Source of the DNA: Komagataeibacter xylinus
Lineage (GTDB): Bacteria; Pseudomonadota; Alphaproteobacteria; Acetobacterales; Acetobacteraceae
NCBI RefSeq assembly: GCF_031081985.1
Contig: NZ_JARWSK010000001.1
Location: 372,001 to 436,000 of the forward strand
Length of the DNA: 64,000 bases
Direction of reading: 5' to 3'
Shown here: piece after piece, positions 5,432 to 51,008 of the stretch
Numbering within the stretch: the first letter of the stretch is position 1
How the letters are laid out: each line of letters begins with the position of its first letter
The notes under the pieces: model-generated
Seen by the model: the letters and a program-made list of their open reading frames with translations, nothing else
Told to the model about the DNA's origin: nothing
Database searches by the model: none
Position numbers and translations under genes: made by a program

Positions 5432-7066
5432 ATGATGAATGCGGTTACGCCTTTTTCAACCCCGATCCGCCTGCTTTCAGTCGCGGCAGAGATGTTTCCC
5501 TTCGTCAAGACCGGCGGGCTGGGCGATGTGGTGGGTTCCCTGCCACACGCGCTGGCCCCTTATGGCGTGGAGGTGACAACCCTGCTGCCCGGCTACCCCG
5601 CCGTCATGGCGGCATTGCCTGCGCGCGTGTCCGTCATGCACCATCCTGACCTGCTGGGGCACGAGGCCACGCTGTGGTCGGCCCATGTGGCCGGGCTGGA
5701 CCTGCTGGTGCTTGACGTGCCCGCCCTGTTTGATCGTCCTGGCAACCCCTATCTCGGCCCCGAGGGGCAGGACTGGCCCGATAACGGCATCCGTTTCGCC
5801 ACCCTTGCCCGCATGGCGGCGGATATTGCCTCAGGCCGCACGCCGCACCCGCGCCCCGACCTTGTGCAGGCGCATGACTGGCAGGCCGGGCTTACCGCAG
5901 CCTACCTGCATCATGACCAGCAGGCGGCTGAACGTGGCGGCCTGCCCGTGGTCACCCGCGTGCCGGTGGTCCAGACCATCCACAACCTTGCTTTTCAGGG
6001 GCGGTTTCCCGCCGGGTGCCTGACCGAATTCGGCCTCCCACCCGAGGCGTTCTCGGTCGAGGGATGCGAGTGCTATGGGGCCATCAGCTTCCTCAAGGCG
6101 GGGCTGTACCATGCCGATCGCATCACCACCGTCTCGCCATCCTATGCGCAGGAAATCCAGACGCCCGAAGGCGGCATGGGCCTCGATGGCCTGCTGCGCC
6201 ATCGCAGCGACCGGCTGGAGGGCATTCTCAACGGCATCAGCACCGACACATGGAACCCGGCCTCCGACCCGGCAGTGCATTTTCCCTACATGGTGGGCGA
6301 TACCGTGGGCCGCGCGCCCAACAAGCGCGACCTGCAGGCCGAATTCGGCCTGTGGGCTGACCCCGATGCCTTTGTGGTGGGCGTGGTCAGCCGCCTGACC
6401 GCGCAGAAGGGTATCGACCTTCTGGCTGACGTGACCCCGCGCCTGCTGGAAGGCAACACCCAGCTTATCGTTGTGGGCGAGGGCGACCGCGAGATCGAGC
6501 GCCGCCTCGCTGGCCTGCAACGCCAGTTTCCCGGCCGGTTCGCCTGCCATCTCGGCTATAGTGAATTCCTTGGCCACCGCCTGCCTTCGGCGGTTGATGC
6601 GCTGCTCATTCCCTCGCGCTTCGAGCCCTGCGGGCTGACCCAGCTTGGCGCGCTGCGTTATGGCGCGGTGCCGATTGCCGCCCGCGTGGGCGGCCTGGCC
6701 GACACCATTGTCAACGCCAATCCCGCAGCCGTGGTCCAGGGCGCTGCGACGGGTTTCCTGTTCACGCCCGTTGATGGCGAGACCCTGCTCGCTACCGTGG
6801 CGCGCGCGCGCCAGCTCTATCGGCGCAACCGCCGCATGTGGCGCCAGCTCCAGCTTACGGGTGCGGCCTATGACGTGTCATGGAACGACAAGGCCGCCCA
6901 TTATGTCAGGCTGTTTGCCGAGATGCTGGGCCTTGATGCGGGCGGCCGGGCGGATTCAAACGTGATCAGCCTGCCAGCAGGCCAACGTGGCCTGCGTGAG
7001 GGCCGCAGGCGGCGCATTGCGCGCAGGCCGCCCCGCCTGTCACGCGCGCTGGCCGTTCCCCATTGA
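5432..7066 (+). CDS. glgA: glycogen synthase (ADP-glucose type)
   Basis: Transfers glucose from ADP-glucose to the non-reducing end of an alpha-1,4-glucan. The N-terminal half carries the donor-binding signature KTGGLGDVVGSLP (about residues 26-38) within LLSVAAEMFPFVKTGG. The C-terminal GT-B half shows VVSRLTAQKGIDLL and IPSRFEPCGLTQLGALRYG with the catalytic Glu. At 544 residues it is longer than the usual 480; the extra lies at the C-terminus, which is very basic (GLREGRRRRIARRPPR). First gene of a six-gene operon; AAGGA precedes the ATG. No glgC for making ADP-glucose is in the window. Confidence 0.96.
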   Translation: MMNAVTPFSTPIRLLSVAAEMFPFVKTGGLGDVVGSLPHALAPYGVEVTTLLPGYPAVMAALPARVSVMHHPDLLGHEATLWSAHVAGLDLLVLDVPALFDRPGNPYLGPEGQDWPDNGIRFATLARMAADIASGRTPHPRPDLVQAHDWQAGLTAAYLHHDQQAAERGGLPVVTRVPVVQTIHNLAFQGRFPAGCLTEFGLPPEAFSVEGCECYGAISFLKAGLYHADRITTVSPSYAQEIQTPEGGMGLDGLLRHRSDRLEGILNGISTDTWNPASDPAVHFPYMVGDTVGRAPNKRDLQAEFGLWADPDAFVVGVVSRLTAQKGIDLLADVTPRLLEGNTQLIVVGEGDREIERRLAGLQRQFPGRFACHLGYSEFLGHRLPSAVDALLIPSRFEPCGLTQLGALRYGAVPIAARVGGLADTIVNANPAAVVQGAATGFLFTPVDGETLLATVARARQLYRRNRRMWRQLQLTGAAYDVSWNDKAAHYVRLFAEMLGLDAGGRADSNVISLPAGQRGLREGRRRRIARRPPRLSRALAVPH

Positions 7067-7123
7067 TGCGTCTGGCCCCCAACGTTCACAGCCAAACCCC
7101 TACAGCACAGTAAAGGCCCCGGC

Positions 7124-9343
7124 ATGCGGATCAGGCACGATGCAGCCCACTATGTCCTCCCCGATGGTATTGATGATCTTGTGCATGGGCGCAGTTCTGA
7201 TCCGTTTGCCATTCTTGGCCGCCACAACATGGGGCGTGTCGATGTCATCCGCGTGCTGTACCATGATGCGGCGCGCGTAAGGCTGGTGGTCGAGCGCCCG
7301 CGCGCCAGCCCGATCGAGCGCCCCATGCGGCGCATGAACGAGGCGGGGCTGCATGTCGGCACCATTCCCGCAGGGGCGCGCTATCACCTGAAAATCGTCT
7401 GGGCCGACGCGGTGGAGGAAACCGCCGACCCGTATTCATTCGGCCTGCTGCTTGATGAGGCGGAGCTGCGCCTGTTTGCCGAAGGTAGCCACCGCCAGCT
7501 TGATCACCTCATGGGCGCGCAGCCCATGGTGGTTGACGGCACGCCAGGCGTGCGCTTTGCCGTGTGGGCGCCCAATGCGCGGCGGGTTTCGGTCATCGGG
7601 GATTTCAATTTCTGGGATGGCAGGCGCCACCCCATGCGCCTGCGCCACAGTGCAGGGGTGTGGGAGCTGTTCATTCCCGGCCTCGGCCCCGGCGAGCGCT
7701 ACAAATTTGAGATCATGACGCGCGAGGGCCATATCCTGCCCCACAAGGCCGATCCCTTCGCCCGGTTTGCCGAGCGCCCGCCCGCCACCGCCTCGGTCGT
7801 GGCATCGCTTGCACCTTTTGCCTGGACCGATGCGGACTGGATGGCCACGCGCGGGCGCGCTCAGGCTACCGATGCGCCGCTGGCCATATATGAACTGCAC
7901 GTCCCCTCATGGCGCAGGCCCCAGGGCGACCCGGACCGCATCATGTCGTGGCGCGAACTTGCGGGCGAACTCATTCCCTACGTGCAGGCGGCGGGCTTTA
8001 CGCATGTCGAACTCATGCCTGTCATGGAATATCCGTTTGGCGGCTCATGGGGCTACCAGCCGCTCGGGCTGTTCGCGCCCTCCGCCCGGCATGGCACGCC
8101 GGCTGATTTTGCGGCCTTCATCGATGCCTGCCACGCAGCGGGCATCGGCGTGATCCTGGACTGGGTGCCCGCCCATTTCCCCAATGACGTGCACGGGCTG
8201 GCCTGTTTCGATGGCTGTGCGCTGTACGAGCATCAGGACCCGCGCGAGGGGGTGCACCGTGACTGGAACACCCATATCTATAATTTCGGCCGCCACGAGG
8301 TGCGTGGCTTCCTCATCGCCAGCGCGCTGATGTGGCTGGAGCGCTTTCATATCGACGGGCTGCGTGTCGATGCCGTGGCCTCCATGCTGTACCGCGACTA
8401 CAGCAGGCGGGAAGGGGAGTGGATCCCCAACATCCATGGCGGGCGTGAAAACCTTGAGGCCGTTGCCTTCCTGCGCCAACTCAACGAGACCGTGCGCGAA
8501 ACCTGCCCCGATGCGATGATGATTGCCGAGGAATCCACCGCCTGGCCCGGCGTGACCCGCCCGGTGGCGCAGGGGGGGCTGGGCTTTTCCTATAAATGGA
8601 ACATGGGATGGATGCATGACAGCCTGCGCTTCTTTGCGCGTGACCCGCTGTGGCGTGGCCATCACCTCAATGAAATCCTGTTCGGGCTGCATTATGCCTT
8701 CAGCGAGCATTTCATCCTGTGCCTGTCGCATGATGAAGTGACCCACGGCAAGGGCTCGCTGCTGGCCCGCATGCCCGGTGATGGCTGGCAGCGCCATGCC
8801 AATCTGCGGGTGTTTTTCGCCTTCATGTGGGCCCATCCGGGGCGCAAGCTGGTGTTCATGGGGGCCGAACTGGCGCAGGAGGCGGAATGGTCACATGAGG
8901 GCGAGCCGCCATGGCGCAGCCTGGATGATCCGCTCAAGGCGGGCATGCTGGGTCTCATCACCGATCTCAACCGCCTCTATCGCGATCTGCCCGCCCTCCA
9001 TGCGCTTGACAGCGACCCCGCCGGTTTTGCGTGGGTGATTGGTGATGACACCGCCAACGCCGTGCTGGCCTGGCTGCGGCTGGCGCCGGGCCATGCCCCG
9101 GTGCTGGTGGTGCTCAACCTGACCCCCGTGGTGCGCCATGGCTACCGCGTGGGCGTGCCGGTGGGCGGGCCGTGGCGCGAGCGCCTCAATTCCGATGCTG
9201 AGGCCTATGGCGGCAGCGGCGTGGGCAATGGCGGTGGCGTCATGGCGCAGCCCGAACCTTCTCACGGCCAGCCCTGCTCGTGCGTGCTGACCCTGCCGCC
9301 GCTGGCAGCGCTTTACCTTCAGCCTGCGGGAGAAGGATCATGA
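7124..9343 (+). CDS. glgB: 1,4-alpha-glucan branching enzyme
   Basis: Makes the alpha-1,6 branches of glycogen. The 739-residue protein has the full family layout: an N1 domain, a CBM48 domain ([21 protein letters not shown]), a GH13 barrel and a C-terminal beta domain. Barrel motifs: [51 protein letters not shown] with the nucleophile Asp, [14 protein letters not shown] with the acid Glu, and [13 protein letters not shown]. It lies 57 bases after glgA and overlaps glgX by four bases (ATGA), indicating translational coupling. Confidence 0.97.
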
Positions 9344-11469
9344 TGCGCTTCCCGCCCGCGCTTTCGCCCGGCAGCCCCACCCGCCTCGGCGCGTGCTGGG
9401 ATGGGCTTGGCGTCAATTTCGCGGTGTTCTCGGCCAATGCGCAGCAGATCGACCTGTGCATTTTCGACCCGCGCGACCGGCGCGAGATCGCGCGCTTTCG
9501 TCTGCCCGAATATACCGATGAGATATGGCACGGCTACCTGCCCGATGCCGAGCCGGGGCTGTTATACGGCTTCCGGGCCTTCGGGCCATACGACCCCGCC
9601 AACGGCCACCGCTTCAATCCGCACAAGCTGCTGATCGACCCCTATGCCCGCAGGCTCACGGGGCCGGTTTCATGGTCGGACACGCAGTTCGGCTACCGCC
9701 TGCACTCGCCGCGCGCCGACCTGTCCTTCGACCGACGTGACAGCGCGCCCTCCATGCCCAAATGCGTGGTGGTGAACGATGCCTATGAGTGGGAGGATGA
9801 CATCCTGCCCTGCGTACCGTGGGCGGATACCGTCATCATGGAGGCGCATGTCAGGGGCCTGACCATGCAGCGCGCGATGGAGCGCAACCCCCAGCCCGGT
9901 ACGTTCCAGGCCCTTGGCGCGCCCGAAATGATCGCGCACCTGCACAGGCTGGGAGTGACCACGCTCGAACTGCTGCCCATCCAGTGCTTTGCCCCCGAGC
10001 GTTACCTGATCGAGCGCAGGCTGACCAATTACTGGGGCTACAACACGCTGGCGTTTTTCGTGCCGCATGCGGGCTATCTGGCCAGCGGCTCGGCGCATGA
10101 ACTGCGCGCGGCCATCAGACGGTTGCACAAGGCGGGCATCGAGGTGGTGATGGACGTGGTCTACAACCACACCTGCGAGGGCAGCGAACTCGGCCCCACC
10201 CTGTGCTACCGCGGGCTGGACAACGCCACCTATTACAGCCTCGTGCCCGGTGATGAGCGGCACCTCATCAACGATACCGGCTGCGGCAACACGCTCAACC
10301 TGTCGCACCCGCGCGTGTTGCAGATGGTGCTGGACTCGCTGCGCTACTGGGCGGGCGAATTCCACATTGATGGCTTCCGCTTCGACCTCGCTCCGGTGCT
10401 CGGGCGCGAGCCCTATGGCTTCGATCAGGGATCAGGCTTTTTCGATGCCATCATCCAGGACCCCTTGCTGTCCACCCGCAAGCTGATTGCCGAGCCATGG
10501 GACCCCGGTCCCGGCGGCTACCAGTTCGGCAACTTCCCGCCCGGCTTTGCCGAATGGAATGACCGCTTCCGCGATACCACGCGGCGCTTCTGGCGCGGCG
10601 ATGGCCAGCAGCAGGGCGATATCGCCGCCCGCATCGCAGGCTCGGGCGACCTGCTCGACCATAGGGGCCGCAGGCCGTGGAGTTCGGTCAACCTCATTAC
10701 CGCGCATGACGGCTTCACGCTCGAGGACGTGGTCAGCTACGCCGAGCGCCATAACGAGGCCAACGGGGAAGATGGCCAGGATGGCAGCGCCGACAACAAC
10801 AGCGCCAACTGGGGTGTGGAAGGCCCGACCGATGACCCCGCCATCCTCGACCTCCGCGCCCGCGTGCAGCGTGCCATGATGGCGACCCTCATGTTCTCGC
10901 ACGGAACCCCCATGCTGCTGGCGGGCGATGAGTTTGGCCAGACCCAGAACGGCAATAACAACACCTACTGCCAGGACAACCCCACAAGCTGGCTGGACTG
11001 GAAGCGCGCCGCCTCGCCGCAGGGCCAGTTGATGACCGCTTTTGTCGCCCGCCTTGCCACGCTGCGCCGTGCCCACCCCTCGCTGCGGGCAGCGCGCTAC
11101 ATGCATGGCCGCCACAGGCCGCTGCCTGACATGCCCGATATCGGCTGGTTCGACCATGATGGCACGCCCATGGGGGTGGAGCAGTGGAATGACGAGACAT
11201 TCCACCTGCTTGGCGTGCGCCGCGCCAGCACCGGGGCCGATGGCGCGGTCGACATCACCTACATGCTGCTCAACCCCGGCGGGAGCGACGTGAACGCGAC
11301 CCTGCCTGCACCCGGAGGGCAGTGGACCCTGCTGCTCGACACCACGCAGCCCGAGCGGGCGGAACAGGCGCTGGGTGCGGATGTGCATGACATTACCGTG
11401 CCCGCCCACGGGCTTGTGCTGCTGGCTTTCGTGCCTGGCAGCGATGATGAGGCGGAGGATGCCGCATGA
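9340..11469 (+). CDS. glgX: glycogen debranching enzyme GlgX
   Basis: Hydrolyses alpha-1,6 branches of limit dextrins. I place the start at the ATG at 9340, overlapping the glgB stop, because GGGAGAAGG lies just before it; this gives 709 residues. CBM48 ([20 protein letters not shown]) precedes a GH13 barrel with [29 protein letters not shown] (nucleophile), [20 protein letters not shown] (acid Glu) and [17 protein letters not shown]. The residues and length match GlgX/isoamylase-type enzymes. It feeds linear maltodextrins to MalQ and TreY encoded downstream; it overlaps treZ by four bases. Confidence 0.96.
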
Positions 11470-13247
11470 GCACCCATTTCCAGTCTGACCGCTACGTCGG
11501 GGCCACGTTGCTCGATGCCGGGCATACCCGCTTCCGGTTCTGGGCGCCCTCATGCCACACGGTCCTGCTCGAGGCGCAGGGCCACGCGCCTGTTGCCATG
11601 GCCCGCGACAGGGAGGGGTGGTTTGAATGCGTGTTCCCCTGCGGGGCGGGCACGCGCTACCGCTACCGCGTGGCCCGTGACCTTGCCGTGCCGGACCCCG
11701 CCTCATGCTACCAGCCCGACGACGTGCGCGGACCAAGCGAGGTGGTCGATCCCGCCGCCTATGACTGGCAGCACGCCGCATGGCCGGGCCGCCCATGGCA
11801 TGAGGTGGTCATATACGAGGTGCATGTGGGCCTGATGGGTGGTTATGAAGGCGTAGCCCGCGACCTGCCGCGCCTTGCCGCCCTTGGCGTGACCGCCATC
11901 GAACTCATGCCGCTGGCCGAGGTGCCGGGCGGACGCAACTGGGGCTATGACGGCGTGCTGCCTTTCGCCCCGGAATCCGCCTACGGGCCGCCCGATGCGC
12001 TCAAGGCGCTGGTTGATACGGCGCACGGGTTGGGACTCATGGTGTTTCTCGACGTGGTGTACAACCATTTCGGCCCGGACGGGAATTACCTGGCTGACTA
12101 CGCAACGCCCTTCTTCAGGTATGACACGGCAACGCCGTGGGGGGCGGCGATTGATTTCGGGCAGGAGGCGGTCAGCCAGTTCTTTATTGATAACGCGCTG
12201 TACTGGCTTATGGAATTCCGCTTTGACGGCCTGCGGCTCGATGCCGTGCAGGCCATTGTGGACCGGGACTGGCTGATGGCGTTGCCTGCCATCATCCGCA
12301 ACCATGTCGAGCGCGGGCGGCATGTGCACCTGATCGTTGAAAATGAAAACAATGATGCCGGCCTGCTGCGTGCGGGCTATCGGGCCCAGTGGAATGATGA
12401 TGCCCATAACGCCCTGCATGTGCTGCTGACCGGCGAGGACGAGGGCTATTACGGCAATTTCGCTCCCGAACCGGCGCCTGCGCTGGCGCGCGTGCTGGCC
12501 GAAGGTTTTGCCTTTCAGGGCGAGGTGCAGCCGGTCAATGGCAAGGCGAGGGGCAGCCCGAGCGCTGACCTTGCACCGGACCGCTTCATCATCTTCCTGC
12601 AAAACCATGACCAGATCGGCAACCGCGCACTAGGCGAGCGGCTGGGCGTGCTGGCCACGCCACAGGCCCTGCGCGCGGCCTACGGGCTGGTGCTCCTGTG
12701 CCCGCAGGTCCCGATGCTGTTCATGGGCGAGGAATGGGGTTCGCGCCAGCCCTTCCTGTTCTTTACCGACTACAACCCGGCGCTCGGCCGGATCGTGCGC
12801 GAAGGGCGGCGGCAGGAATTTGCCGGTTTCTCGCATTTCGCCTCGGCGGAAAAACGCGATACTATCCCCGATCCCAACGCGCCTGAAACCTATGCCGCCT
12901 CGCGCCTCGACCCCCTCGAGCGCGATAAACCGGCCCACAGGGAATGGAACGCACAGATTGCGCAGCTCCTGGCCCTGCGCCACGCCGAGATTACGCCCCG
13001 CCTGCCCGGCGCGCGTGCCATGGGGGCGCAGGTGCTGGGCAGGGGGGCGGTTTTTGCCCGGTGGCGCATGGGCGATGGGGCGGTGCTGTCCATTGCCCTC
13101 AACCTGGGCGATGCGGCAGTGCCGCTGCCAGACATGCCGCAGGGGCGCTGCCTGCATGCGGTGCTGCCGCACGGGGTGGACCTGTTCTGCGCAACCCTGC
13201 CCCCCTGTGCCATGATGGCCTGCCTGAACGAGGCCGAGGATGAATAA
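11466..13247 (+). CDS. treZ: malto-oligosyltrehalose trehalohydrolase
   Basis: Releases trehalose from maltooligosyl-trehalose, the second step of the TreY/TreZ route. The 593 residues contain an N-terminal CBM48-like domain (RFRFWAPSCHTVLLEAQG), then the GH13 barrel: VIYEVHVGLMGGYEGV, MVFLDVVYNHFGPDGNYL, FRFDGLRLDAVQAI (nucleophile Asp), LIVENENNDAG (acid Glu) and FLQNHDQIGNRALGERL. The stretch MGEEWGSRQPFLFFTDY is typical of TreZ. It starts inside the glgX stop (ATGA) and overlaps malQ by eight bases, so its dosage is tied to both neighbours. Confidence 0.96.
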   Translation: MSTHFQSDRYVGATLLDAGHTRFRFWAPSCHTVLLEAQGHAPVAMARDREGWFECVFPCGAGTRYRYRVARDLAVPDPASCYQPDDVRGPSEVVDPAAYDWQHAAWPGRPWHEVVIYEVHVGLMGGYEGVARDLPRLAALGVTAIELMPLAEVPGGRNWGYDGVLPFAPESAYGPPDALKALVDTAHGLGLMVFLDVVYNHFGPDGNYLADYATPFFRYDTATPWGAAIDFGQEAVSQFFIDNALYWLMEFRFDGLRLDAVQAIVDRDWLMALPAIIRNHVERGRHVHLIVENENNDAGLLRAGYRAQWNDDAHNALHVLLTGEDEGYYGNFAPEPAPALARVLAEGFAFQGEVQPVNGKARGSPSADLAPDRFIIFLQNHDQIGNRALGERLGVLATPQALRAAYGLVLLCPQVPMLFMGEEWGSRQPFLFFTDYNPALGRIVREGRRQEFAGFSHFASAEKRDTIPDPNAPETYAASRLDPLERDKPAHREWNAQIAQLLALRHAEITPRLPGARAMGAQVLGRGAVFARWRMGDGAVLSIALNLGDAAVPLPDMPQGRCLHAVLPHGVDLFCATLPPCAMMACLNEAEDE

Positions 13248-15315
13248 CCGCACCCTTGTCGAGCGCGCCCGCCATGCCGGGCTGAGCCTGCGTTGGCGCG
13301 ATGCCGCGGGCGAGATGCACCGCGTCTCGAACGAGAGCCTGCGCCGCCTGCTGGCCGTGCTGGAAGGTCATGCCCCGCCGCCACGCCCGCGCGGGGCGCT
13401 GCCCGCCATGGTGGTGGGCGTTGCAGGGCAGGCGACCGTGCTGCCCCTGCCACCTGCTGATGCCGGGGGCCGGTTTCGCCTCGTGCTGGAAAATGGCGCG
13501 GAAATTGAAGGCAATTTGCGCCTGATGCGTGGCCACCCTGCGCTGCCCCCCGTGGGCGTGTGCGGCTACCACCGGCTGGAAGTGGGCGACACGCCCGCAA
13601 CCTTGGCCATTGCGCCCCCGTCCTGCCCGCGCGTGAGCCGGATTTGCGCAGGCGGCAGCGTGCGGGCATGGGGCCTGGGCGCGCAGGTTTATGGCCTGCG
13701 CATGGCGGGCGATGGCGGGATTGGCCATTTTGGCGCGGTTGAAACCCTGGCCCGCACGGCTGCGGCACGCGGGGCGGATGCGCTGGCCATCAGCCCGGCC
13801 CATGCCATGTTTGCAGCCCGCCCCGGGCAGTACAGCCCGTATTCGCCTTCCTCGCGCCTGTTCCTTAATGGTTTGCTGGCTGACCCGCATGCGGTGTTCG
13901 ACGCGGCAACCGTGCAGGCCGCCGTGGTCAGGGAGGGGGCGGATTATGTCGATACGCTCAGGCAGCTTGAGGATGCGCCGCTGATTGACTGGGCGCGGGC
14001 CAGCACATGCCGCTACCGGTTGCTCAGGCGGCTGTATGATGAGCGGATCGCGGCCAGTCCGCCACAGGCCATGCGCGACTTCCGCGCGGCCGGGGGGCGG
14101 GCGCTCGAGCAGCATGCCCTGTTCGAGGCGCTGCATGCCTATTTCTCCACCCGTGGCGAACGCGGCGGCGACTGGCGGCGCTGGCCTGTGCCCATGCGCC
14201 AGCCAGACAGCCCGGAAGTGGCGCGGTTTGCGCAGGAATTCGCCCATGACGTGACATTCCATGTGTTCGTGCAATGGCTGGCGGCCACCAGCCTTGCCCG
14301 TGCCTGCGCAGGCGCGCGTTCAGCGGGCATGCGCATCGGCCTGATCAAGGACATGGCGGTGGGCGTGGACCCCACGGGCAGCGAATGCTGGGCGCGCCAG
14401 TCCGAGTTCCTGCTCGGTGCAGGCATTGGCGCGCCGCCCGATGCGCTCAGCCCGCTGGGGCAGGACTGGGGGCTGACCACGTTTTCCCCCGCCGGGCTGC
14501 GGGCCACGGGCTACCGCGCCTTTATCGACACGCTACGTGCGGGCTTCGCCCATGGCGGGGGCTTGCGCATCGACCATGTCATGGCGCTGGAACGGCTGTG
14601 GATCATACCGCAGGGCGGCGCTTCGGCTGAAGGGAGTTATCTGTCCTTTCCCGTGCGCGACCTCATGCGGCTCGTCGCCCTTGAGGCCATGCGGGCCGAT
14701 GCCATGGTGATTGGCGAGGATCTGGGCACTGTCACCACCGCGTTTCGCAAGGCGGCGGGCGCGCATGGCATCATGGGCATGAACGTGCTGTTTTTCGAGC
14801 GCACGCCGCAAGGGGTGTTCAAACCACCCGCCACATGGTCGCCCCAGGCCACCGCCATGACCACCACCCATGACCTGCCCACGGTGGCAGGCTGGTGGCA
14901 GGGAACGGACATTGCATGGCGCGAGAAACTGCATCAGCTCCCCGTGGGCCTCGACCCCAATACCGTGCGTGACGAGCGTGAAAATGACCGCACCGCCCTG
15001 TGGTCCGCCCTGATGGACGACCGGCCTGCATCCGCCGCGCGGGGCAGGGGTGGGGAGAAGCCACCGCCAGATCCCACGGGAGCGGCAAGGGTGGTGGAGG
15101 AGGCCATCGGCTTCGTGGGCCGGGCCGCATGCCCGCTTGCCCTCATGGCGGTGGAGGACATGCTCGGCCTTGCCGAACAGCCCAACCTGCCCGGCACCAC
15201 GAGCGGCCACCCCAACTGGCAGCGCCGCTACCCTGGCATGACCGCAACCCTGCTGTCAGGGCATGATACGCGCCGGCGCTTCAACCGCCTGCGCGCGGGG
15301 CGTGCCCATGAATAG
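13240..15315 (+). CDS. malQ: 4-alpha-glucanotransferase (amylomaltase)
   Basis: Moves maltosyl or longer units between alpha-glucans, extending short chains so that TreY can use them. This 691-residue GH77 protein has an N-terminal extension of about 150 residues before the catalytic domain, as in many proteobacterial MalQ. Motifs: YSPYSPSSRLFLNGLLADP, IGLIKDMAVGVDPTGSECWA, GGGLRIDHVMALERLWIIP (nucleophile Asp), MVIGEDLGTV (acid Glu) and TTHDLPTVAGWW. The start overlaps the end of treZ and the end overlaps the start of treY by eight bases. Confidence 0.95.
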   Translation: MNNRTLVERARHAGLSLRWRDAAGEMHRVSNESLRRLLAVLEGHAPPPRPRGALPAMVVGVAGQATVLPLPPADAGGRFRLVLENGAEIEGNLRLMRGHPALPPVGVCGYHRLEVGDTPATLAIAPPSCPRVSRICAGGSVRAWGLGAQVYGLRMAGDGGIGHFGAVETLARTAAARGADALAISPAHAMFAARPGQYSPYSPSSRLFLNGLLADPHAVFDAATVQAAVVREGADYVDTLRQLEDAPLIDWARASTCRYRLLRRLYDERIAASPPQAMRDFRAAGGRALEQHALFEALHAYFSTRGERGGDWRRWPVPMRQPDSPEVARFAQEFAHDVTFHVFVQWLAATSLARACAGARSAGMRIGLIKDMAVGVDPTGSECWARQSEFLLGAGIGAPPDALSPLGQDWGLTTFSPAGLRATGYRAFIDTLRAGFAHGGGLRIDHVMALERLWIIPQGGASAEGSYLSFPVRDLMRLVALEAMRADAMVIGEDLGTVTTAFRKAAGAHGIMGMNVLFFERTPQGVFKPPATWSPQATAMTTTHDLPTVAGWWQGTDIAWREKLHQLPVGLDPNTVRDERENDRTALWSALMDDRPASAARGRGGEKPPPDPTGAARVVEEAIGFVGRAACPLALMAVEDMLGLAEQPNLPGTTSGHPNWQRRYPGMTATLLSGHDTRRRFNRLRAGRAHE

Positions 15316-18049
15316 CCGTGAGCCTGCCGCCCTAGTGCGGGCCACGCTGCGGCTGCAGTTCCGCGCGGGCATGACAATCGATGACGCAACCGCCCTTGTG
15401 CCGCAATTTGCCCGCCTTGGCATAAGCCATCTTTACGCCTCGCCCCTGTTTGCCGCCCGCCCCGGCTCGACCCATGGCTATGATACCGTGGCCTATGACC
15501 ACATCGACCCGGCACTGGGCGGCGAGGCGGCCCTGATCCGCCTGGCTGACCGGCTGCATGCCCACGGCATGGGGCTGATCCTTGATATCGTGCCCAACCA
15601 CATGGCCGTTGATGCCCATAATGCGTGGTGGATGGATGTGCTGGCCTGGGGGCAGGCTTCGGCGCATGCCACATGGTTCGACATCAACTGGCATGACCCG
15701 GATCTGCGCGGGCGGGTGCTGCTGCCCTTCCTTGATCGCCCGCTGCCCGAGGCAGTGGCGGCAGGCAGCCTTGTCCTGCGCCATGACGGGGATGGGGGAC
15801 TGTTCCACATCCATCACCATGAGCACAGCTTTCCGCTCAGCCCGGCCAGCTATGCAGCCCTGCTGGCGCAGGTGGAGGCCCCCGGCGCGCTGCTTGCGGC
15901 GTTTACCACCGTGGCGCTGCGCGGCGGGCCGGGGGCGGAAGCGGATTGCGCGCTGGCGGCCCTGCGCCACTGGGCGGCAACACAGCGCGGGCAGGCGGCC
16001 ATGGCGCGTCTTGCCAGCCTGCATGATGGATGCGACCCCGCAGGCCGCCTCCGGCTGGAACGCCTGCTGGCCGCGCAGCCCTGGCGTCTGGCCTGCTGGC
16101 GTGAGGCTGCGACACGGATCAACTGGCGGCGGTTTTTTGACATTACCGGCCTTGTGGGTGTGTGCGTGGAGCGCGCGGAGGTGTTCGAGGCGGTGCATGG
16201 CTATCTGTTCTCGCTGTATCAGCGCGGACTGGTTGACGGCGTGCGGGTCGATCATATTGACGGGCTGACCGCGCCTGCCGCCTACTGCCAGCGCCTGCGC
16301 ACCCGACTTGACGCACTGGCCCGCCTGCGCCCCGAAAGCGCCCTGCCGGGGGCTGCCATTTACGTGGAAAAAATCCTTGCCACCGATGAGAGCCTGCCTG
16401 CTGCCTGGCCGGTTGAAGGCACCACGGGCTATGACTTCATGGATCAGGTCTCCGCCGTGCTGCATGATGCGCGCGCGGCCCCTGTGCTGGATCGGCTGTG
16501 GGCGGCGTGCGGGCCAGATGCGAAAGCCTGCGGCCTGATTGCGCGCGCAGCCCGCGCGCAACTGCTGGCCGGGGGCTTTGCCGCCGAATTCGGGCACCTG
16601 ACCCGCCTGCTGGCCACGGCGCTGAAGGCGCGGGGGGCGGACTGCATGCCTGCGGCAGACCTGCGGGCCGTGCTTGAGGCCGTGCTGGTCTCCTTCGCGC
16701 TCTACCGCACCTATTTTGGCGATGAGGTGATGCATGACCATGCCGAAGATGGCGCGGCCCTGCACGCGGCCAGCACCGCCGCCCGGCCACGGCTGGCAGC
16801 CCAACTGCAACCGGTGCTTGATACGGTCGTGAGCATCCTGTCAGCCCGGCCGGAGCATGCGCCTGCGGCCTGCGTGCGCCGCGCCGAGCAGGCATTCGAG
16901 CACCTGACCGCGCCGCTGGCCGCCAAATCAACGGAAGATACGGCCTTTTACTGCTACGGGCGCCTGATCTCGCGCAACGAGGTGGGGTCCGACCCGGCAC
17001 GGCTCGGCCTTGCGGTTGCGGATTTCCATGCCGGTTGCACCACCCGTGCCCGCGCGCACCCCGCCGCCATGCTCACCACCGCGACCCACGACCACAAGCG
17101 TGGCGAGGACAGCCGCGGCCGCTTGGCCGTGCTGAGCGAGATGGCGCCCGCGTGGCATGGACAGGTCAGCGCGTGGTTTGCCCAAAACGGCGCGGAAACG
17201 GCGATCGGGCCAGACCGCATTGATGAACTGATGCTGTACCAGACCATGCTCGGTGCGTGGCCACTCACCCCTTTCGCCAGCGAGGGCGTGCGTGAGGCGT
17301 GGTGCGAACGCATCGTGCAATGGCAGACCAAGGCCCTGCGCGAGGCCAAGCGCCATACGAACTGGCTCGACCCCGACATGGCGTATGAGGAAGCCTGCAC
17401 GGCCTTTGTGCGCCGTCTTGTCGCCAACCCGGCTTTCATGGCGCAGATGGAGCGGGTGGTGGCGCAGATTGCCCCGGCGGGCGCGCTCAACGGGCTGGCG
17501 CAGACCCTTCTGCGGCTGACCACGCCCGGCGTGCCGGACCTGTATCAGGGCTGTGATTTATGGGATTTCAGCCTCGTTGACCCCGATAACCGCCGCCCGG
17601 TTGATTTCGGCCTGCGCCATGCGCTGCTCGAACACGCTGGCAGTTTTGATGCCTCCGCCGCCACATGGCGCACGGGCCAGGTCAAGCTTGACCTGATCCG
17701 GCGCATCCTGTCGTTTCGGGCACGCTATCCTGACCTGTTTGCCAGGGGGTACTACCAGCCGCTGGCGGTGGAAGGGGCGGACCGCGACCATGCCATTGCC
17801 TTCCTGCGGCAGCATGACGGGTTCAGCCTGCTGGTGGTGGCCCCGCGCCTGCCACTGGGCATGGAAATACAGGCCGATACGCTGGCGCTGGGGCGTGATA
17901 TGGCGCTGCGCGTGACCCTGCCGCAGCCAGTCGGCCCATGGCACAGCCTGCTGGGTGCCTTACCGGTGCAGGCCGCCGTGCCGTTTACGCGCGGGCAGGT
18001 GCCCCTTGTCTGCCTCGTGCATGATGCGGGTGGTCGGGGCTTGCCCTGA
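15308..18049 (+). CDS. treY: malto-oligosyltrehalose synthase
   Basis: Converts the reducing-end alpha-1,4 bond of maltodextrins into an alpha,alpha-1,1 bond, giving maltooligosyl-trehalose. The ATG at 15308, inside the malQ end, is chosen over 15263; it gives 913 residues. Landmarks: SHLYASPLFAARPGSTHGYD, LILDIVPNHMAVDAHNAWW, GVRVDHIDGLTAPAAYC (nucleophile), EKILATDESLPAAWPVEGTT, ATHDHKRGEDSRGRLAVLSE and TPGVPDLYQGCDLWDFSLVD. The last gene of the operon; together with TreZ it makes trehalose, an osmoprotectant. Its stop is one base from a convergent gene, with no terminator visible between them. Confidence 0.96.
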   Translation: MNSREPAALVRATLRLQFRAGMTIDDATALVPQFARLGISHLYASPLFAARPGSTHGYDTVAYDHIDPALGGEAALIRLADRLHAHGMGLILDIVPNHMAVDAHNAWWMDVLAWGQASAHATWFDINWHDPDLRGRVLLPFLDRPLPEAVAAGSLVLRHDGDGGLFHIHHHEHSFPLSPASYAALLAQVEAPGALLAAFTTVALRGGPGAEADCALAALRHWAATQRGQAAMARLASLHDGCDPAGRLRLERLLAAQPWRLACWREAATRINWRRFFDITGLVGVCVERAEVFEAVHGYLFSLYQRGLVDGVRVDHIDGLTAPAAYCQRLRTRLDALARLRPESALPGAAIYVEKILATDESLPAAWPVEGTTGYDFMDQVSAVLHDARAAPVLDRLWAACGPDAKACGLIARAARAQLLAGGFAAEFGHLTRLLATALKARGADCMPAADLRAVLEAVLVSFALYRTYFGDEVMHDHAEDGAALHAASTAARPRLAAQLQPVLDTVVSILSARPEHAPAACVRRAEQAFEHLTAPLAAKSTEDTAFYCYGRLISRNEVGSDPARLGLAVADFHAGCTTRARAHPAAMLTTATHDHKRGEDSRGRLAVLSEMAPAWHGQVSAWFAQNGAETAIGPDRIDELMLYQTMLGAWPLTPFASEGVREAWCERIVQWQTKALREAKRHTNWLDPDMAYEEACTAFVRRLVANPAFMAQMERVVAQIAPAGALNGLAQTLLRLTTPGVPDLYQGCDLWDFSLVDPDNRRPVDFGLRHALLEHAGSFDASAATWRTGQVKLDLIRRILSFRARYPDLFARGYYQPLAVEGADRDHAIAFLRQHDGFSLLVVAPRLPLGMEIQADTLALGRDMALRVTLPQPVGPWHSLLGALPVQAAVPFTRGQVPLVCLVHDAGGRGLP

Positions 18050-18050
18050 A

Positions 18051-18602
18051 TCAGGCGGTGGCGAGGGAACGCAGTTCGGTAAAGAGGATTTCCTTGCCGT
18101 CATAAACCGGCCGGTCGTAGCGGAAGCCGGTCAGGCTTTCGATCACGCTGACCGGTATGTCAAAAAACACATCCACGTTCTTGCACGTGCCCGCCTCGGC
18201 GCGGGCGGCTTCGATGATGGCGCTGCTTTCAGGGGGGAGGGTGCCGGTGCACTCAAGGTTATCGTGCCCCTTGGCGGCCTCGTGGGAAATGTTCCACCTA
18301 TTGTACATTTTCCCCTGGTCGTCATAGTCATGCCCGAAGCCGACGCTCATCATGGTTGTTTCCAGCACGCAGCAGCCCACGATGCTATGCCTGCACCTGA
18401 AAGGCAGGTGAAGCGGCTCACTGTCTGGCAGGTATTCACACTGGCTGGACCACAGGATGGTCCACCCCGTTGGCATGTCGGCGATGGAAAAATCGGCCTC
18501 GCGTGCTTCGTCCTCGATCCCGGTATCCTCAAATTCCATAAGGGCCAGTATTTCTTCACGGCGCACGCCATGGAACGCCAGATAGGATGCATTAAAACCC
18601 AT
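18051..18602 (-). CDS. conserved hypothetical protein, possible immunity-type
   Basis: A soluble 183-residue acidic protein beginning MGFNASYLAFHGVRREEIL. The pattern (a short N-terminal fold, then MPTGWTILWSSQCEYL, then a final FFDIPVSVIESLTGFRYDR) matches an unnamed family I recall from many bacteria, often near polymorphic toxin loci. I cannot name it or give it a function. It converges on treY with a one-base gap. Together with the Imm33-like gene at 4550 it flanks the glycogen/trehalose operon, but the two proteins are not obviously related. Confidence 0.6.
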   Translation of the reverse strand: MGFNASYLAFHGVRREEILALMEFEDTGIEDEAREADFSIADMPTGWTILWSSQCEYLPDSEPLHLPFRCRHSIVGCCVLETTMMSVGFGHDYDDQGKMYNRWNISHEAAKGHDNLECTGTLPPESSAIIEAARAEAGTCKNVDVFFDIPVSVIESLTGFRYDRPVYDGKEILFTELRSLATA

Positions 18603-18904: not shown

Positions 18905-20188
18905 GTGAACGGTTTTCCTGACGACCCGAAAAACATGCCCCCCCGCCTGGGCCGGAGGGGGCTGTTTGCCGGTTCCCTGGCCCTTGGCGCGCTCGCCGGT
19001 GGCCGGTGGGCGTCTGTGCCTGCCGCCGCCGCGGCCCTGCGGCGCACGGCGGTGCCCGGCACGGTGCCCCTGCTTGTGCCCATGCGCCCCCATGCCGACC
19101 AGATAACCGATATCAAGGTCTGCCTGCGCCCGTTCCGCGCCGCAGGCCCGCGGCTCGATGTCGAGCGCGTGGGCGAGAAGGTGGTCATCCACAATTACGG
19201 CCATGGCGGCAGCGGGTGGTCGCTTTCATGGGGCTCGGCCGAGATGGCGGTGGGCAAGGCGGCGGCCCTGTCGCCCCGGCGCGTGGCGGTTGTGGGGTGC
19301 GGGGTGATTGGCCTGACCACGGCGCTGACGGCGCAGCGCGCAGGGCTTGATGTCACGATCTATACGCGCGACCTGCTGCCCCATACCCGCTCGGTCCGTG
19401 CCAATGGTAGCTGGACGCCGGATTCACGCGTGGCGCTGACCGCCCCCGCAGGGTCGCAATTTGCCGACACGTGGGAGCGGATGGCCCGCTATTCATGGAA
19501 AAGCTATCGCGATTACCTTGGCCTGCCCGGCAACCCGATCGACTTCCGGGACAGTTATGTGCTGTCCGACACGCCTTTTGACGCGCCGGAACCCGAGCCT
19601 GAAAATCCGGACCACAAGGGCGACTATGCCACGACCGGCATGCCGCAGCAATCAAGCGAGTTTGCCAGTTATGGCGAACGGATACGCGATATCATTCCAG
19701 CATCCGAACTGCTCTCCGCGCAGGAAAATCCGTTTGCGGTGCCCTATGCCCGGCGCGCGCCGCTGATGATCTTTAATTTCGGGGCGTATGGGCATCTCCT
19801 GCTGTCCGAATTTTATCAGGCGGGGGGGCGGATCGTCATCCGCGAGTTCCATACACCGGCCGACATGAAGAGCCTGCCCGAGCCGGTCATCATCAATTGC
19901 CCCGGCTATGCGGCGCGTGACCTGTGGGGGGACCGCTCGCTCATTCCCGTGCGTGGCCAGACCGCGTGGCTGCCGCCGCAACCCGATGTGGCTTATGGGG
20001 TGCGTTACAAGGGGGCCTCGGCGCTTTCGAAAAGTGATGGCTTGATGATACAGGGGTTTGACATGTCGGGCTTGGGTGAAATGGACGGCGTGGGCAACAG
20101 TTTTGAACATGCCGACCGTAGCGAGGCGGAAAAGGCGATTGGCATATTTGAAAATCTTTTTGCCCGTTTTCCCGCGGGGCAGGGCTGA
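18905..20188 (+). CDS. Tat-exported, circularly permuted D-amino-acid-oxidase-type flavoprotein
   Basis: A 427-residue FAD protein. AGAGG seven bases before the GTG at 18905 makes that the likely start, rather than the TTG at 18899. Residues 17-33 (RRGLFAGSLALGALAGG) form a twin-arginine signal, so the enzyme should be folded and periplasmic. Residues 73-110 hold CLRPFR and HNYGHGGSGWSLSWG, the segment that in normal D-amino-acid oxidases lies at the C-TERMINUS. The Rossmann motif VAVVGCGVIGLTTA (127-140), normally N-terminal, follows it. The order of the fold is thus permuted. It ends in the start codon of a cytochrome c gene. Substrate unknown. Confidence 0.85.
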   Translation: MNGFPDDPKNMPPRLGRRGLFAGSLALGALAGGRWASVPAAAAALRRTAVPGTVPLLVPMRPHADQITDIKVCLRPFRAAGPRLDVERVGEKVVIHNYGHGGSGWSLSWGSAEMAVGKAAALSPRRVAVVGCGVIGLTTALTAQRAGLDVTIYTRDLLPHTRSVRANGSWTPDSRVALTAPAGSQFADTWERMARYSWKSYRDYLGLPGNPIDFRDSYVLSDTPFDAPEPEPENPDHKGDYATTGMPQQSSEFASYGERIRDIIPASELLSAQENPFAVPYARRAPLMIFNFGAYGHLLLSEFYQAGGRIVIREFHTPADMKSLPEPVIINCPGYAARDLWGDRSLIPVRGQTAWLPPQPDVAYGVRYKGASALSKSDGLMIQGFDMSGLGEMDGVGNSFEHADRSEAEKAIGIFENLFARFPAGQG

Positions 20189-20628
20189 TGCGCGGCCTGC
20201 TCGCAAGGCTGCGTGATGCCGCGCTGGGGGCAGGGCTGCTGGCGCTGAGCGTGCAGATGGCCCATGCGGCACCGGCGCGGGCTGGTACATCCTATTACAC
20301 CCCCGCGCAGGCCGGGCGGGGGGCTACGGCCTACCAGCAGTTCTGCGCGGTGTGCCACGGGGCGGATCTGGGCGGGGCCTTTGACGTGCCGCCGCTTGTG
20401 GGGCGCTTTGCCGCCAACTGGTCAGGCGCACCGCTGGGCCAGTTGTTTGACTACATGTCAAAAGCCATGCCGCTTTTTGCCCCCGGCACGCTGACACCTG
20501 CGCAGAATGCGGATCTGCTGGCGTTCATGCTGCGTGAGAACGGCGCGCCCGCAGGCAGTCGTGATCTTACCCCCGAGAGGGTGAAAACCATGATATTTCC
20601 TAAAATGACTGCCGCCACCGTGAAGTAA
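20188..20628 (+). CDS. periplasmic cytochrome c, partner of the flavoprotein
   Basis: A 146-residue class I cytochrome c with a signal peptide ending AHAAPA (near residue 30). One haem site is present, CAVCH (residues 53-57), within YQQFCAVCHGADLGG; KAMPLFAPGTLT supplies a likely axial Met. The start ATG shares its A with the upstream stop (TGATG), so the two genes are translationally coupled. The cytochrome probably takes electrons from the flavoprotein and hands them to the respiratory chain, as dehydrogenase cytochromes of acetic acid bacteria do; this is inferred from pairing. Confidence 0.85.
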   Translation: MRGLLARLRDAALGAGLLALSVQMAHAAPARAGTSYYTPAQAGRGATAYQQFCAVCHGADLGGAFDVPPLVGRFAANWSGAPLGQLFDYMSKAMPLFAPGTLTPAQNADLLAFMLRENGAPAGSRDLTPERVKTMIFPKMTAATVK

Positions 20629-48795: not shown

Positions 48796-50730
48796 TTACG
48801 TGATGACCGGCCTGTCATTGACCACGCGCCCGTCCACCGCGCAGGCCTGCTGATGCTCGAGCGGGTGGTCACTGGCGCGCAGCACCCTGCCGTGGCGTGT
48901 CGTGCCAAAACCGGGCTCATAACGGCCTTCGGTCCACACGGGCTGGCCCGCAATCATGACGTGGCGCACCACGCCTGTGGGGCGGTTGATGACCTGTCGG
49001 CAGCCAAATTCGGAGCGGTGCACGAATTCATAGGTTTCCTCCGGGTTCCATCGCCGCAGGGCCTCGGGGTCGATCACGCACAGATCGGCCTGCGCGCCCA
49101 CCCGCAACCTGCCTGCGTTGAGGTTGAAAAAGTCAGCCGGCAGGCCGGTCAGGCGGTGGATGGCAAGCGCCACCTTTTCGGGCCCGTCAGGCTCGGCGAT
49201 CTTGAGGAAGCGCAGGTTACCATCATAAAACGCGATATTGGCCAGATGCGCCCCGCTATCGTTGAATCCGGGCAGGGTCTGCGGGTTGAACAGCAGCTTT
49301 TTCAGTTGCGCGGGATTGCGGTTGGCGAAAGTGGTTTCCCACCGCAGGTCCGTATCCCACTGCCGCAGCAGGTGCAGGAGGAAGGTGGCATCATCGCGCA
49401 CGGGGTCGGGGAAGGTGGCGAAGAATGCAGCCTCCGCCGTATTGGCGGCACCCTGGCGGCCCTTGGTGTGCTGCCAGCGCACAAGGCGCTCATAGGGGGC
49501 AAGCAGCGTCTCGCCCTGCCAGTTGGCAAGCGGGCATTCGGCCACTTTCATGTCGGCCAGGCTGCGGGTCAGCACGGTTTCTTCCTGGCGCATCAGGCGG
49601 CGCAGGCGGTCGAATGTCCAGCCAGACTTGCCCTTGAGCCACATCTCGCGAAAGCCCGCGATCCATTCCGGGTCGTTGAGAATGCGCGCCCGCCCCGCGC
49701 GGTCATCAAGTTCGAGTTCATTCAGGGCGCGCAGTTGCGGTATTTCATCGGCAATGGGGTTGATCGCCCCGTCACTCCAGATGCGGAACGAGGCGGCCAG
49801 CACCTGAAAGCGGAACATGCCGCCGAGCAGCCTTGAATTGAGTATGGCCGAGAGCATGAGACACATCGAGACGGCAGCGCGGTTGGTCTGCAGGTCGATC
49901 GCGGCGAGCACCGTGGTCTTGAGCGGGCGGCCAAACAGCCTGCCGCTGGTGAGCAGGAAGCTGCGCACGGCATCGACAATATCATCCTTGGGCGGTGTGG
50001 CCTGCCACACGCGCCCGTAGCGGCGCACGACCCCGGTCAACTGCTTCAGTTCGCGGAAGCTGGCATATTGCGTGGGAATCTTGCGTTTCTTGTGCGGGTC
50101 GTTCGCCAGGAAATGAAAGGGCAGGGCATCGGTTGAAAAACCGGCATAACCCTGCGCCATGCCCGCATCGACCAGCCGCTCCATGCGCGCGCGCTCGCGC
50201 CGTGTCGGGCGGCGCGAGATGGAATCGCGCAGGCCCATCACTTCGATGCGCAGCATGGAATGCGGAATGAGCGGTACCACGTTGGGGCCAAGCTTCAGGC
50301 CCGAAAGATGATCGAGATAGCTTTGTGAATCCGACCAGTCACATGCATCGGCCACCTTGGCCAGCACGCTCTTGGGCATGTTCTCCACGCGGGCAAAGCA
50401 GTCCACGATCGGGTCTTCACCCTCGCGGCGCTGGTTGCCATAGGTCACGCCAATGGAGCAGTTGCCGATCACGACCGTGGTGGTGCCGTGGCGCACGACT
50501 TCGGGCAGGGCGGGGTCGAGTTCAAGCTCGAGGTCGAGATGGGTGTGAATGTCGAGCAGGCCGGGCATGAGCCACAGGCCGTCGCAGTCGATCTCGGTCG
50601 TGTGGCTGTCGGCAACCAGCATATGGCCTATGGCGGAGATCCTGCCCGCTGATACGGCGATGTCGGTTCGGGTGGGGCTTGCGCCCGTGCCATCGAAAAA
50701 CAGCGCATTGCGGTAGATGGTATCGGGCAC
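48796..50730 (-). CDS. N-acyl-D-amino-acid deacylase-like amidohydrolase
   Basis: A 644-residue member of the amidohydrolase/D-aminoacylase family. The GTG at 50730 is taken as start because GGAG lies six bases before it. Landmarks: the N-terminal beta domain and metal motif LMPGLLDIHTHLDLELELDP, then RHGTTTVVIGNCSIG, PLIPHSMLRIEVMGLRDS, the late FNDSGAHLANIAFYD and a final WTEGRYEPGFGTTRHGRVLR. The family removes acyl groups from N-acyl-D-amino acids or opens cyclic amides. It is longer than classic D-aminoacylase (about 480-490), with inserts. Divergent from a BASS transporter gene. Confidence 0.8.
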   Translation of the reverse strand: MPDTIYRNALFFDGTGASPTRTDIAVSAGRISAIGHMLVADSHTTEIDCDGLWLMPGLLDIHTHLDLELELDPALPEVVRHGTTTVVIGNCSIGVTYGNQRREGEDPIVDCFARVENMPKSVLAKVADACDWSDSQSYLDHLSGLKLGPNVVPLIPHSMLRIEVMGLRDSISRRPTRRERARMERLVDAGMAQGYAGFSTDALPFHFLANDPHKKRKIPTQYASFRELKQLTGVVRRYGRVWQATPPKDDIVDAVRSFLLTSGRLFGRPLKTTVLAAIDLQTNRAAVSMCLMLSAILNSRLLGGMFRFQVLAASFRIWSDGAINPIADEIPQLRALNELELDDRAGRARILNDPEWIAGFREMWLKGKSGWTFDRLRRLMRQEETVLTRSLADMKVAECPLANWQGETLLAPYERLVRWQHTKGRQGAANTAEAAFFATFPDPVRDDATFLLHLLRQWDTDLRWETTFANRNPAQLKKLLFNPQTLPGFNDSGAHLANIAFYDGNLRFLKIAEPDGPEKVALAIHRLTGLPADFFNLNAGRLRVGAQADLCVIDPEALRRWNPEETYEFVHRSEFGCRQVINRPTGVVRHVMIAGQPVWTEGRYEPGFGTTRHGRVLRASDHPLEHQQACAVDGRVVNDRPVIT

Positions 50731-51008
50731 GCAGGTCTCCAGGGGGATAAAAGGCAGATAACATGACGGGACAGTATTGCGGCGTATTGATGGCATTGCC
50801 CCGGCTCATACCCCTGTTTCAACCGCCAGCGGGGCGCAGGGTTGCACGCCGGGGTGCTTGCGTAAACCACCGTAACGTCAGGATCGGCGCAATACAGGCT
50901 GTTCACGCGCAGGGCGGGCCGCTATGCACACCCCCTTGGTCGATGGGCGTGGGGCAGGACAATGATGGCGATGGATGTCGGGACAGGGCGAACGTACGGG
51001 GTAGGCGC

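Follow-up and report, generated by a model that had tools for sequence, protein, structure and literature searches.

A circularly permuted D-amino-acid-oxidase-type flavoprotein encoded beside a cytochrome c in Komagataeibacter xylinus

Can an enzyme of the D-amino-acid oxidase (DAO) family carry its C-terminal piece in front of the rest of the chain, and if so, how did such a protein arise and what might it do? The question is raised by a gene at positions 18905-20188 of a 64,000-nucleotide stretch of Komagataeibacter xylinus DNA (contig NZ_JARWSK010000001.1, positions 372,001 to 436,000; this whole stretch is called the window below), in which a sequence-only reading had noticed that motifs normally lying near the C-terminus of these oxidases precede the Rossmann motif. 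That reading placed CLRPFR, HNYGHGGSGWSLSWG and VAVVGCGVIGLTTA correctly, both in the DNA and in the protein. We find, with near certainty, that the protein encoded by this gene is a circularly permuted member of the D-amino-acid/D-aspartate oxidase family. What used to be the C-terminal block (the strand with the counterpart of pig Arg-283, the HNYGHGG loop and the last helix) now stands at the N-terminus and leads directly into the Rossmann strand; the chain now begins and ends in the loop before the Arg-283 strand. The features of the gene, with their basis in brackets (FAD, flavin adenine dinucleotide; Tat, twin-arginine translocation), are:

18905..20188, + strand: coding sequence, 427 amino acids, GTG start, stop codon at 20186-20188; Tat-type exported circularly permuted D-amino-acid-oxidase-type flavoprotein (sequence, profile searches, model)
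18905..19048, + strand: Tat-like signal (LGRRGLFAGSLALGAL) and cleavage region, residues 1-48 (sequence)
19088..19267, + strand: block found at the C-terminus of ordinary DAO, with the substrate Arg strand, the FAD loop and the last helix, residues 62-121 (PDB alignments, model)
19121..19138, + strand: CLRPFR, residues 73-78, with R75 corresponding to pig R283 and R78 to pig R286 (alignments)
19190..19234, + strand: HNYGHGGSGWSLSWG, residues 96-110, the FAD/substrate-amine loop, with HNYGHGG at residues 96-102 (sequence, alignments)
19235..19279, + strand: joint between the old C-terminal helix and the old N-terminal strand, residues 111-125, no extra linker domain (motif distances, model)
19283..19324, + strand: VAVVGCGVIGLTTA, residues 127-140, Rossmann dinucleotide-binding motif (the Pfam DAO profile starts at residue 126)
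19946..19960, + strand: PVRGQ, residues 348-352, counterpart of pig PGRGQ with R199 and Q201 (alignments)
20117..20164, + strand: last helix before the new C-terminus, residues 405-420 (model)

The reversed motif order is borne out by matches in exchanged pieces to solved enzymes. In a phmmer search of the PDB, residues 118-360 of the window protein fall on residues 17-246 of the R. emersonii D-amino-acid oxidase (DAAO; 7ct4, E 1.8e-14) and residues 18-117 on residues 268-370 of the same chain, and the exchange is repeated in the other four alignments printed, human D-aspartate oxidase (DASPO) and pig DAAO among them; the displaced block itself (residues 62-121) aligns with parts of 7ct4 268-370, 6rkf 282-330 and 1dao 302-324. 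A native-order profile of 60 relatives reaches 7ct4 at E 1.3e-30 and DASPO at 4e-27, both in exchanged pieces, and human DAAO at about 1e-23, with only the best stretch tabled. When the protein is rotated in silico (residues 118-427, then 58-117), the Pfam DAO profile matches it in one continuous stretch (profile 1-350 of 353, 87.6 bits), whereas the unrotated protein gives a best stretch that stops at profile position 298 and a total of 77.2 bits; both scores lie above the PF01266 gathering cut-off of 27.9. The protein of a relative, locus L015, behaves likewise (123.1 bits rotated against 112.3 native).

Two homologous segments have thus been exchanged and the old ends joined, with neither segment duplicated. 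The sequence-only reading had named a second HNYGHGG-like loop at the C-terminus as a finding that would speak against permutation; a search of the open frames at 173 permuted loci, the window among them and together coding for 129 non-redundant proteins, turned up no locus with two GHG[GSA] loops, and so no intermediate of the duplication type was seen in this set. The distance from motif to motif is 34 in 112 of the 129 non-redundant proteins and ranges from 33 to 39. A signal-less permuted gene on a Mesorhizobium plasmid (L158, 5974-7037), annotated as two FAD proteins, was considered as a fission intermediate and rejected: its reading frame breaks inside the Rossmann motif, which marks it as a frameshifted gene.

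The AlphaFold model of the window protein (mean predicted local distance difference test score, pLDDT, 89.6; predicted TM-score, pTM, 0.85) has an overall fold like that of solved DAAO. By VIA structure comparison, model residues 125-421 match pig DAAO residues 1-269, and the match ends at model residues 420-421, equivalent to DASPO 263 and DAAO 269, so that the new C-terminus sits where an ordinary DAO runs on towards the Arg-283 strand. Ahead of this region the model has strands at 69-78, 86-89 and 92-96 and a helix at 108-120, followed across the joint by a strand at 126-130. Foldseek alignments (50 matches listed; 300-365 columns, TM 0.36-0.51 by query length, root-mean-square deviation 3.9-10.4) leave the permutation unclear; it is visible in the VIA ranges.

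One may also consider that there is no permutation at all, and that a chance DAO-like motif precedes an ordinary DAO-superfamily protein with its own C-terminal FAD loop. No result supports this, although the sequential structure aligner by itself places residues 123-421 only, leaving those before about 120 unaligned. The total phmmer score is no higher after rotation (52.7 against 56.6 bits), but rotation merges the two stretches into one. The block-mean pLDDT is 95-99 over residues 61-130, of which the sequential aligner takes in only the part from about residue 120. Against it stand the two exchanged homologous segments, which together reach E 1.3e-30, the missing second loop in all 173 loci, and the invariance, in 60 of 60 aligned sequences (lowest identity to the window protein, 33%), of R75, P76, R78, H96, Y98, G99, H100, G101, G102 and the three Rossmann glycines. 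On the sequence evidence the chance-motif explanation is already refuted, and we give it practically no weight.

How widespread is the permuted order? Matches at E 1e-10 occur in 11 of the 19 genomes of the genus (its own included) and in 15 of 60 relatives in all; across the order of the source organism, 47 of 299 sampled genomes match at E 1e-30. A genome_contigs scan gave at least 554 related stretches among at least 592 pattern matches. The sequence-only reading had proposed collecting homologues to see whether they share the order, and they do: all of the best 80 of these at least 554 stretches are permuted (80/80), though their ranking came from a query in native order and was thereby biased towards permuted members. 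The 80 come from Alpha-, Beta- and Gammaproteobacteria, Acidobacteriota and one metagenome-assembled genome of Verrucomicrobiota, and an Actinomycetota record, from Nonomuraea (L150), also holds a permuted member. With the rotated L015 protein as query, 15 of the 299 genomes match; one of these is the window's own genome and one that of L015, and the other 13 are all permuted (13/13). A canonical Vibrio query matches three of the 299, all three at permuted loci. Canonical-order DAO genes do occur in Pseudomonadota, as on a Vibrio plasmid (L149), and 37 Burkholderia plasmid records match canonical queries, by query match alone. Where seen, the annotation of relatives in plasmid records is only 'FAD-dependent oxidoreductase'. 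One genome of the family (G123) has two partial matches, on contigs C72 and C74 (profile 256-393 and 256-392), in 144-aa frames, one of which starts at the contig end; they are possibly decayed genes or assembly breaks.

For the tree, permuted proteins were rotated in silico and aligned with canonical ones (56 permuted and 8 canonical rows). The two kinds are split on a single branch (support 100/94; 100% of 200 bootstrap trees), which keeps a Shimodaira-Hasegawa-type support (SH-aLRT) of 99 without the two longest rows, and which has support of 91/78, with 90% of bootstrap trees, in a 30-row set rooted on a DadA-like protein. A PROSITE-like DAO signature is present in 35 of the 56 permuted rows (window included) and in 4 of 6 canonical rows, and is too strict for use. 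Since other DAO-superfamily structures, among the families listed by VIA, align with the model in their ordinary order, a single permutation with long descent from it makes the simplest history, and we consider it very probable. That the permutation arose more than once is improbable in our estimate: the single branch at 100/94 speaks against it, as does the motif distance common to 112 of 129 proteins, which bears on the main clade only. Repeated origin would be favoured by the few canonical rows that anchor the tree (eight, two of them long branches), by the lower support with a distant root, and by a GHG-to-GxGxxG distance of 36 in the first-splitting clade (L132, L137, L150, L151) against 32 in the main clade.

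The description of a DAO-type flavoprotein behind a Tat-like signal also held up in sequence comparison. The N-terminus carries RRGLF and then a hydrophobic stretch; there is no Cys in residues 1-48, hence no lipobox, and the model is mostly of low confidence here (pLDDT below 50 at residues 1-6, 10-16, 22-39 and 41-48). By our own pattern, 78 of the 81 genes (80 loci and the window) begin with a Tat-like signal. A lipobox accompanies it in 45 of the 78, so that many exported relatives are probably lipoproteins, and of the three genes without the signal two (L090, L093) are cut by the contig start. The further suggestion that permutation served to free an exported N-terminus was not supported. 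The first split within the permuted group separates L132, L150, L151 and L157, which come from Nonomuraea and rhizobia among others and have no visible signal peptide, together with L137 (Tat-like), from all the rest. Permutation and export are therefore separable, and export as the cause of permutation was rejected. In addition, at locus L026 a neighbouring exported-looking flavoprotein of a different family (PF01593) keeps its Rossmann motif in the ordinary N-terminal place, immediately behind its KRDLL signal.

What the enzyme does is suggested in part by the gene that follows it:

20188..20628, + strand: exported one-haem cytochrome c gene (PF13442 E 7.7e-12, sequence)

Its start codon overlaps the flavoprotein stop by one base (TGATG). 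By tblastn a homologue of this cytochrome lies directly downstream in 13 of the 80 relatives (L017-L027, L030, L031), and also in Kozakia. Eight of the 13 (L018-L022, L024, L027, L030), the window and Kozakia L154 form one 10-row clade (100/100). A CxxCH open frame about 150 bases downstream in L094 is unrelated to the partner cytochrome by tblastn and was left uncounted.

The overall explanation that we favour, with somewhat better than even confidence, is a periplasmic amino-acid dehydrogenase built on a permuted DAO fold, which in its clade passes electrons to cytochrome c. The flavoprotein would be exported folded via Tat and would bind FAD as DAO does; R75 would hold the amino-acid carboxylate while hydride is removed from the alpha carbon. 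In the clade of acetic acid bacteria and sphingomonads, electrons would pass to the cytochrome c encoded directly after and on to the respiratory chain, and the imino acid would break down by hydrolysis, either unaided or, in some genomes, with the help of a secreted RidA. Amino acids outside the membrane would thus become a source of energy for the cell. The parts of this proposal differ in strength: that the enzyme oxidises an amino acid is probable, that the cytochrome c is the electron acceptor slightly less so, and for a substrate of D configuration, the likeliest kind, the chances seem about even.

The active site, numbered with a pig DAAO sequence as ruler, gives grounds for doubt. The counterparts of R283 and R286 are Arg without exception, in the 46 rows of the exported main clade as in the remaining 19, and that of G313 is invariant. 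In the R. emersonii enzyme Tyr244 and Arg308 are reported to bind the carboxylate and Gly335 the amine (PMC6697736). ReDAAO Y244 occupies the position of pig Y228, which is Tyr in 8 of 9 canonical rows and in every row of the L132/L150 clade (5 of 5) and of the L015 group (5 of 5). Several observations weigh against the proposed dehydrogenase. This carboxylate Tyr is kept in only 5 of the 46 exported-clade rows, and the window protein has a Ser aligned there, a placement that hinges on how a variable loop is aligned; with the Tyr lost, the choice of substrate has probably changed. A homologous cytochrome adjoins only 13 of 80 genes, so the other relatives must use another acceptor or oxygen. 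The remaining neighbours are scattered, none being common to the whole set of 80, and the tree that orders these clades is anchored by only eight canonical rows.

Such observations leave room for the same permuted fold acting on something other than a free D-amino acid, e.g. an N-substituted or L-amino acid, a peptide-terminal D-residue or a 2-hydroxy acid, which we hold to be a real but lesser possibility. Besides the missing Tyr (41 of 46 rows), it would fit the further changes in the exported main clade, T44 to Arg (42/46), Y55 to Asp (36/46) and G281 to Cys (45/46), and the peptidases and TonB receptors that adjoin some loci. It looks as if the exported branch has a rebuilt active site, and the substrate may therefore differ from classical D-amino acids. 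The enzyme might instead be an exported oxidase that uses oxygen and makes hydrogen peroxide outside the membrane, in defence or competition, the cytochrome c being incidental. The nearest solved relatives are indeed oxidases, and 67 of the 80 relatives have no adjoining homologous cytochrome; the start/stop overlap with the cytochrome gene, and the presence of that gene throughout one 10-row clade, argue the other way, and we consider the peroxide-forming oxidase unlikely.

Further neighbours are seen at some of the loci. A secreted RidA (PF01042 in the two tested) is found at 6 of the 80 loci, and at L032 it lies directly downstream, with a TonB-type receptor directly upstream. At L026 and L029 the permuted enzyme has beside it a second flavoprotein-cytochrome pair, formed by an exported-looking flavin amine oxidase (PF01593 tested in L026) and the cytochrome c that follows it (L026 3769-5830; L029 3250-5449). 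Relatives of beta-lactamase-fold serine hydrolases occur at 7 of 80 loci, directly downstream in four Dyella loci (Pfam tested in L081). A Kozakia plasmid cluster (L156, 8305-21749) comprises a LysR regulator, two beta-lactamase-fold serine hydrolases, a DadA-like dehydrogenase, an S9 peptidase, the permuted enzyme and cytochrome c; the opposite strand carries an S15-type hydrolase and a TonB receptor. The cluster looks like a D-peptide utilisation island. At L023 an exported-looking Amidohydro_3 protein (PF07969) follows the cytochrome; its nearest NCBIfam, below cut-off, is NF006560, a model once named D-glutamate deacylase. Signal-less rhizobial members precede a thiamine pyrophosphate (TPP) enzyme gene in 3 of 3 plasmid loci, and the one tested comes closest to indolepyruvate/phenylpyruvate decarboxylase, with a score below cut-off. 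By eye, an APC-type amino-acid permease adjoins the permuted gene in Caulobacter (L047, 2741-4159), and another lies on the other strand in Niveispirillum (L074, 7222-8652).

Within the window, a 666-aa amidohydrolase (48796-50796, - strand), N-acyl-D-amino-acid deacylase-like by eye, lies 28 kb from the permuted gene and is possibly part of D-amino-acid metabolism. A run of glycogen/trehalose-type genes (5432-18049, + strand; by eye glycogen synthase, branching and debranching enzymes and malto-oligosyltrehalose synthase) ends just upstream of the flavoprotein gene, and three of its genes are also upstream in L017 and L018; between the run and the flavoprotein lies a 183-aa gene (18051-18602, - strand) without a Pfam match at E 1e-4.

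How does the protein compare with known systems? With DAAO and DASPO (1kif, 6rkf, 7ct4) it shares the Pfam DAO fold, the Rossmann motif, PVRGQ, the counterparts of Arg-283 and Arg-286 and the HNYGHGG loop; it differs in lacking their order of N-terminal Rossmann motif and C-terminal FAD loop, in its Tat-like export signal and cytochrome c partner gene, and, like most of the exported main clade, in the lost Y228 counterpart. With the DadA-type D-amino-acid dehydrogenase (NF001933) it has in common the Pfam DAO superfamily and the proposed respiratory oxidation of D-amino acids; it scores only 28.5 bits on that model, whose cut-off is 383. The DadA-like protein of the Kozakia cluster scores 361 bits, also below cut-off, and is in canonical order (Pfam DAO, residues 4-394 on profile 1-352). 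As in the flavoprotein-cytochrome c dehydrogenases of acetic acid bacteria, an exported FAD subunit is encoded beside a cytochrome c, here with the genes overlapping at TGATG. Gluconate dehydrogenase-type flavoproteins of these bacteria belong to the GMC family and are paired with a three-haem cytochrome, whereas the window has a DAO-type flavoprotein and a one-haem cytochrome.

To our knowledge, it is rare for a whole catalytic flavoprotein to be circularly permuted in nature and for the new order to have become fixed in one lineage and to have spread across several phyla. Judged by the listings and abstract openings of our open-access full-text searches, a permuted DAO is named nowhere, and the only permuted flavoproteins met were the FMN-bind1 group (PMC11334425). 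These are naturally permuted extracytosolic bacterial flavoproteins in which only a C-terminal helix is displaced and flavinylation sites are present; the window protein has a DAO domain, not FMN-bind1.

What is new here is the chain order and perhaps the electron route, while the DAO fold and probably the DAO chemistry are known. As a tentative history, to which we would give rather less than an even chance as a whole, one ancient permutation may have founded a separate DAO-type lineage that is found today in Pseudomonadota, Acidobacteriota, Verrucomicrobiota and Actinomycetota. Its signal-less branch would feed 2-oxo-acid decarboxylation; its exported branch would have rebuilt the active site, losing the carboxylate Tyr and gaining a new Arg and Asp, and in one clade it would have turned into a periplasmic dehydrogenase that is linked to cytochrome c and acts on D-amino acids set free from peptides or acylated D-amino acids. 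Since DAAO is among the best studied flavoenzymes, the two chain orders lend themselves to a direct comparison of fold, FAD binding and catalysis. The finding also draws attention to a family of exported oxidoreductases and to a possible new route for the periplasmic respiration of D-amino acids by bacteria.
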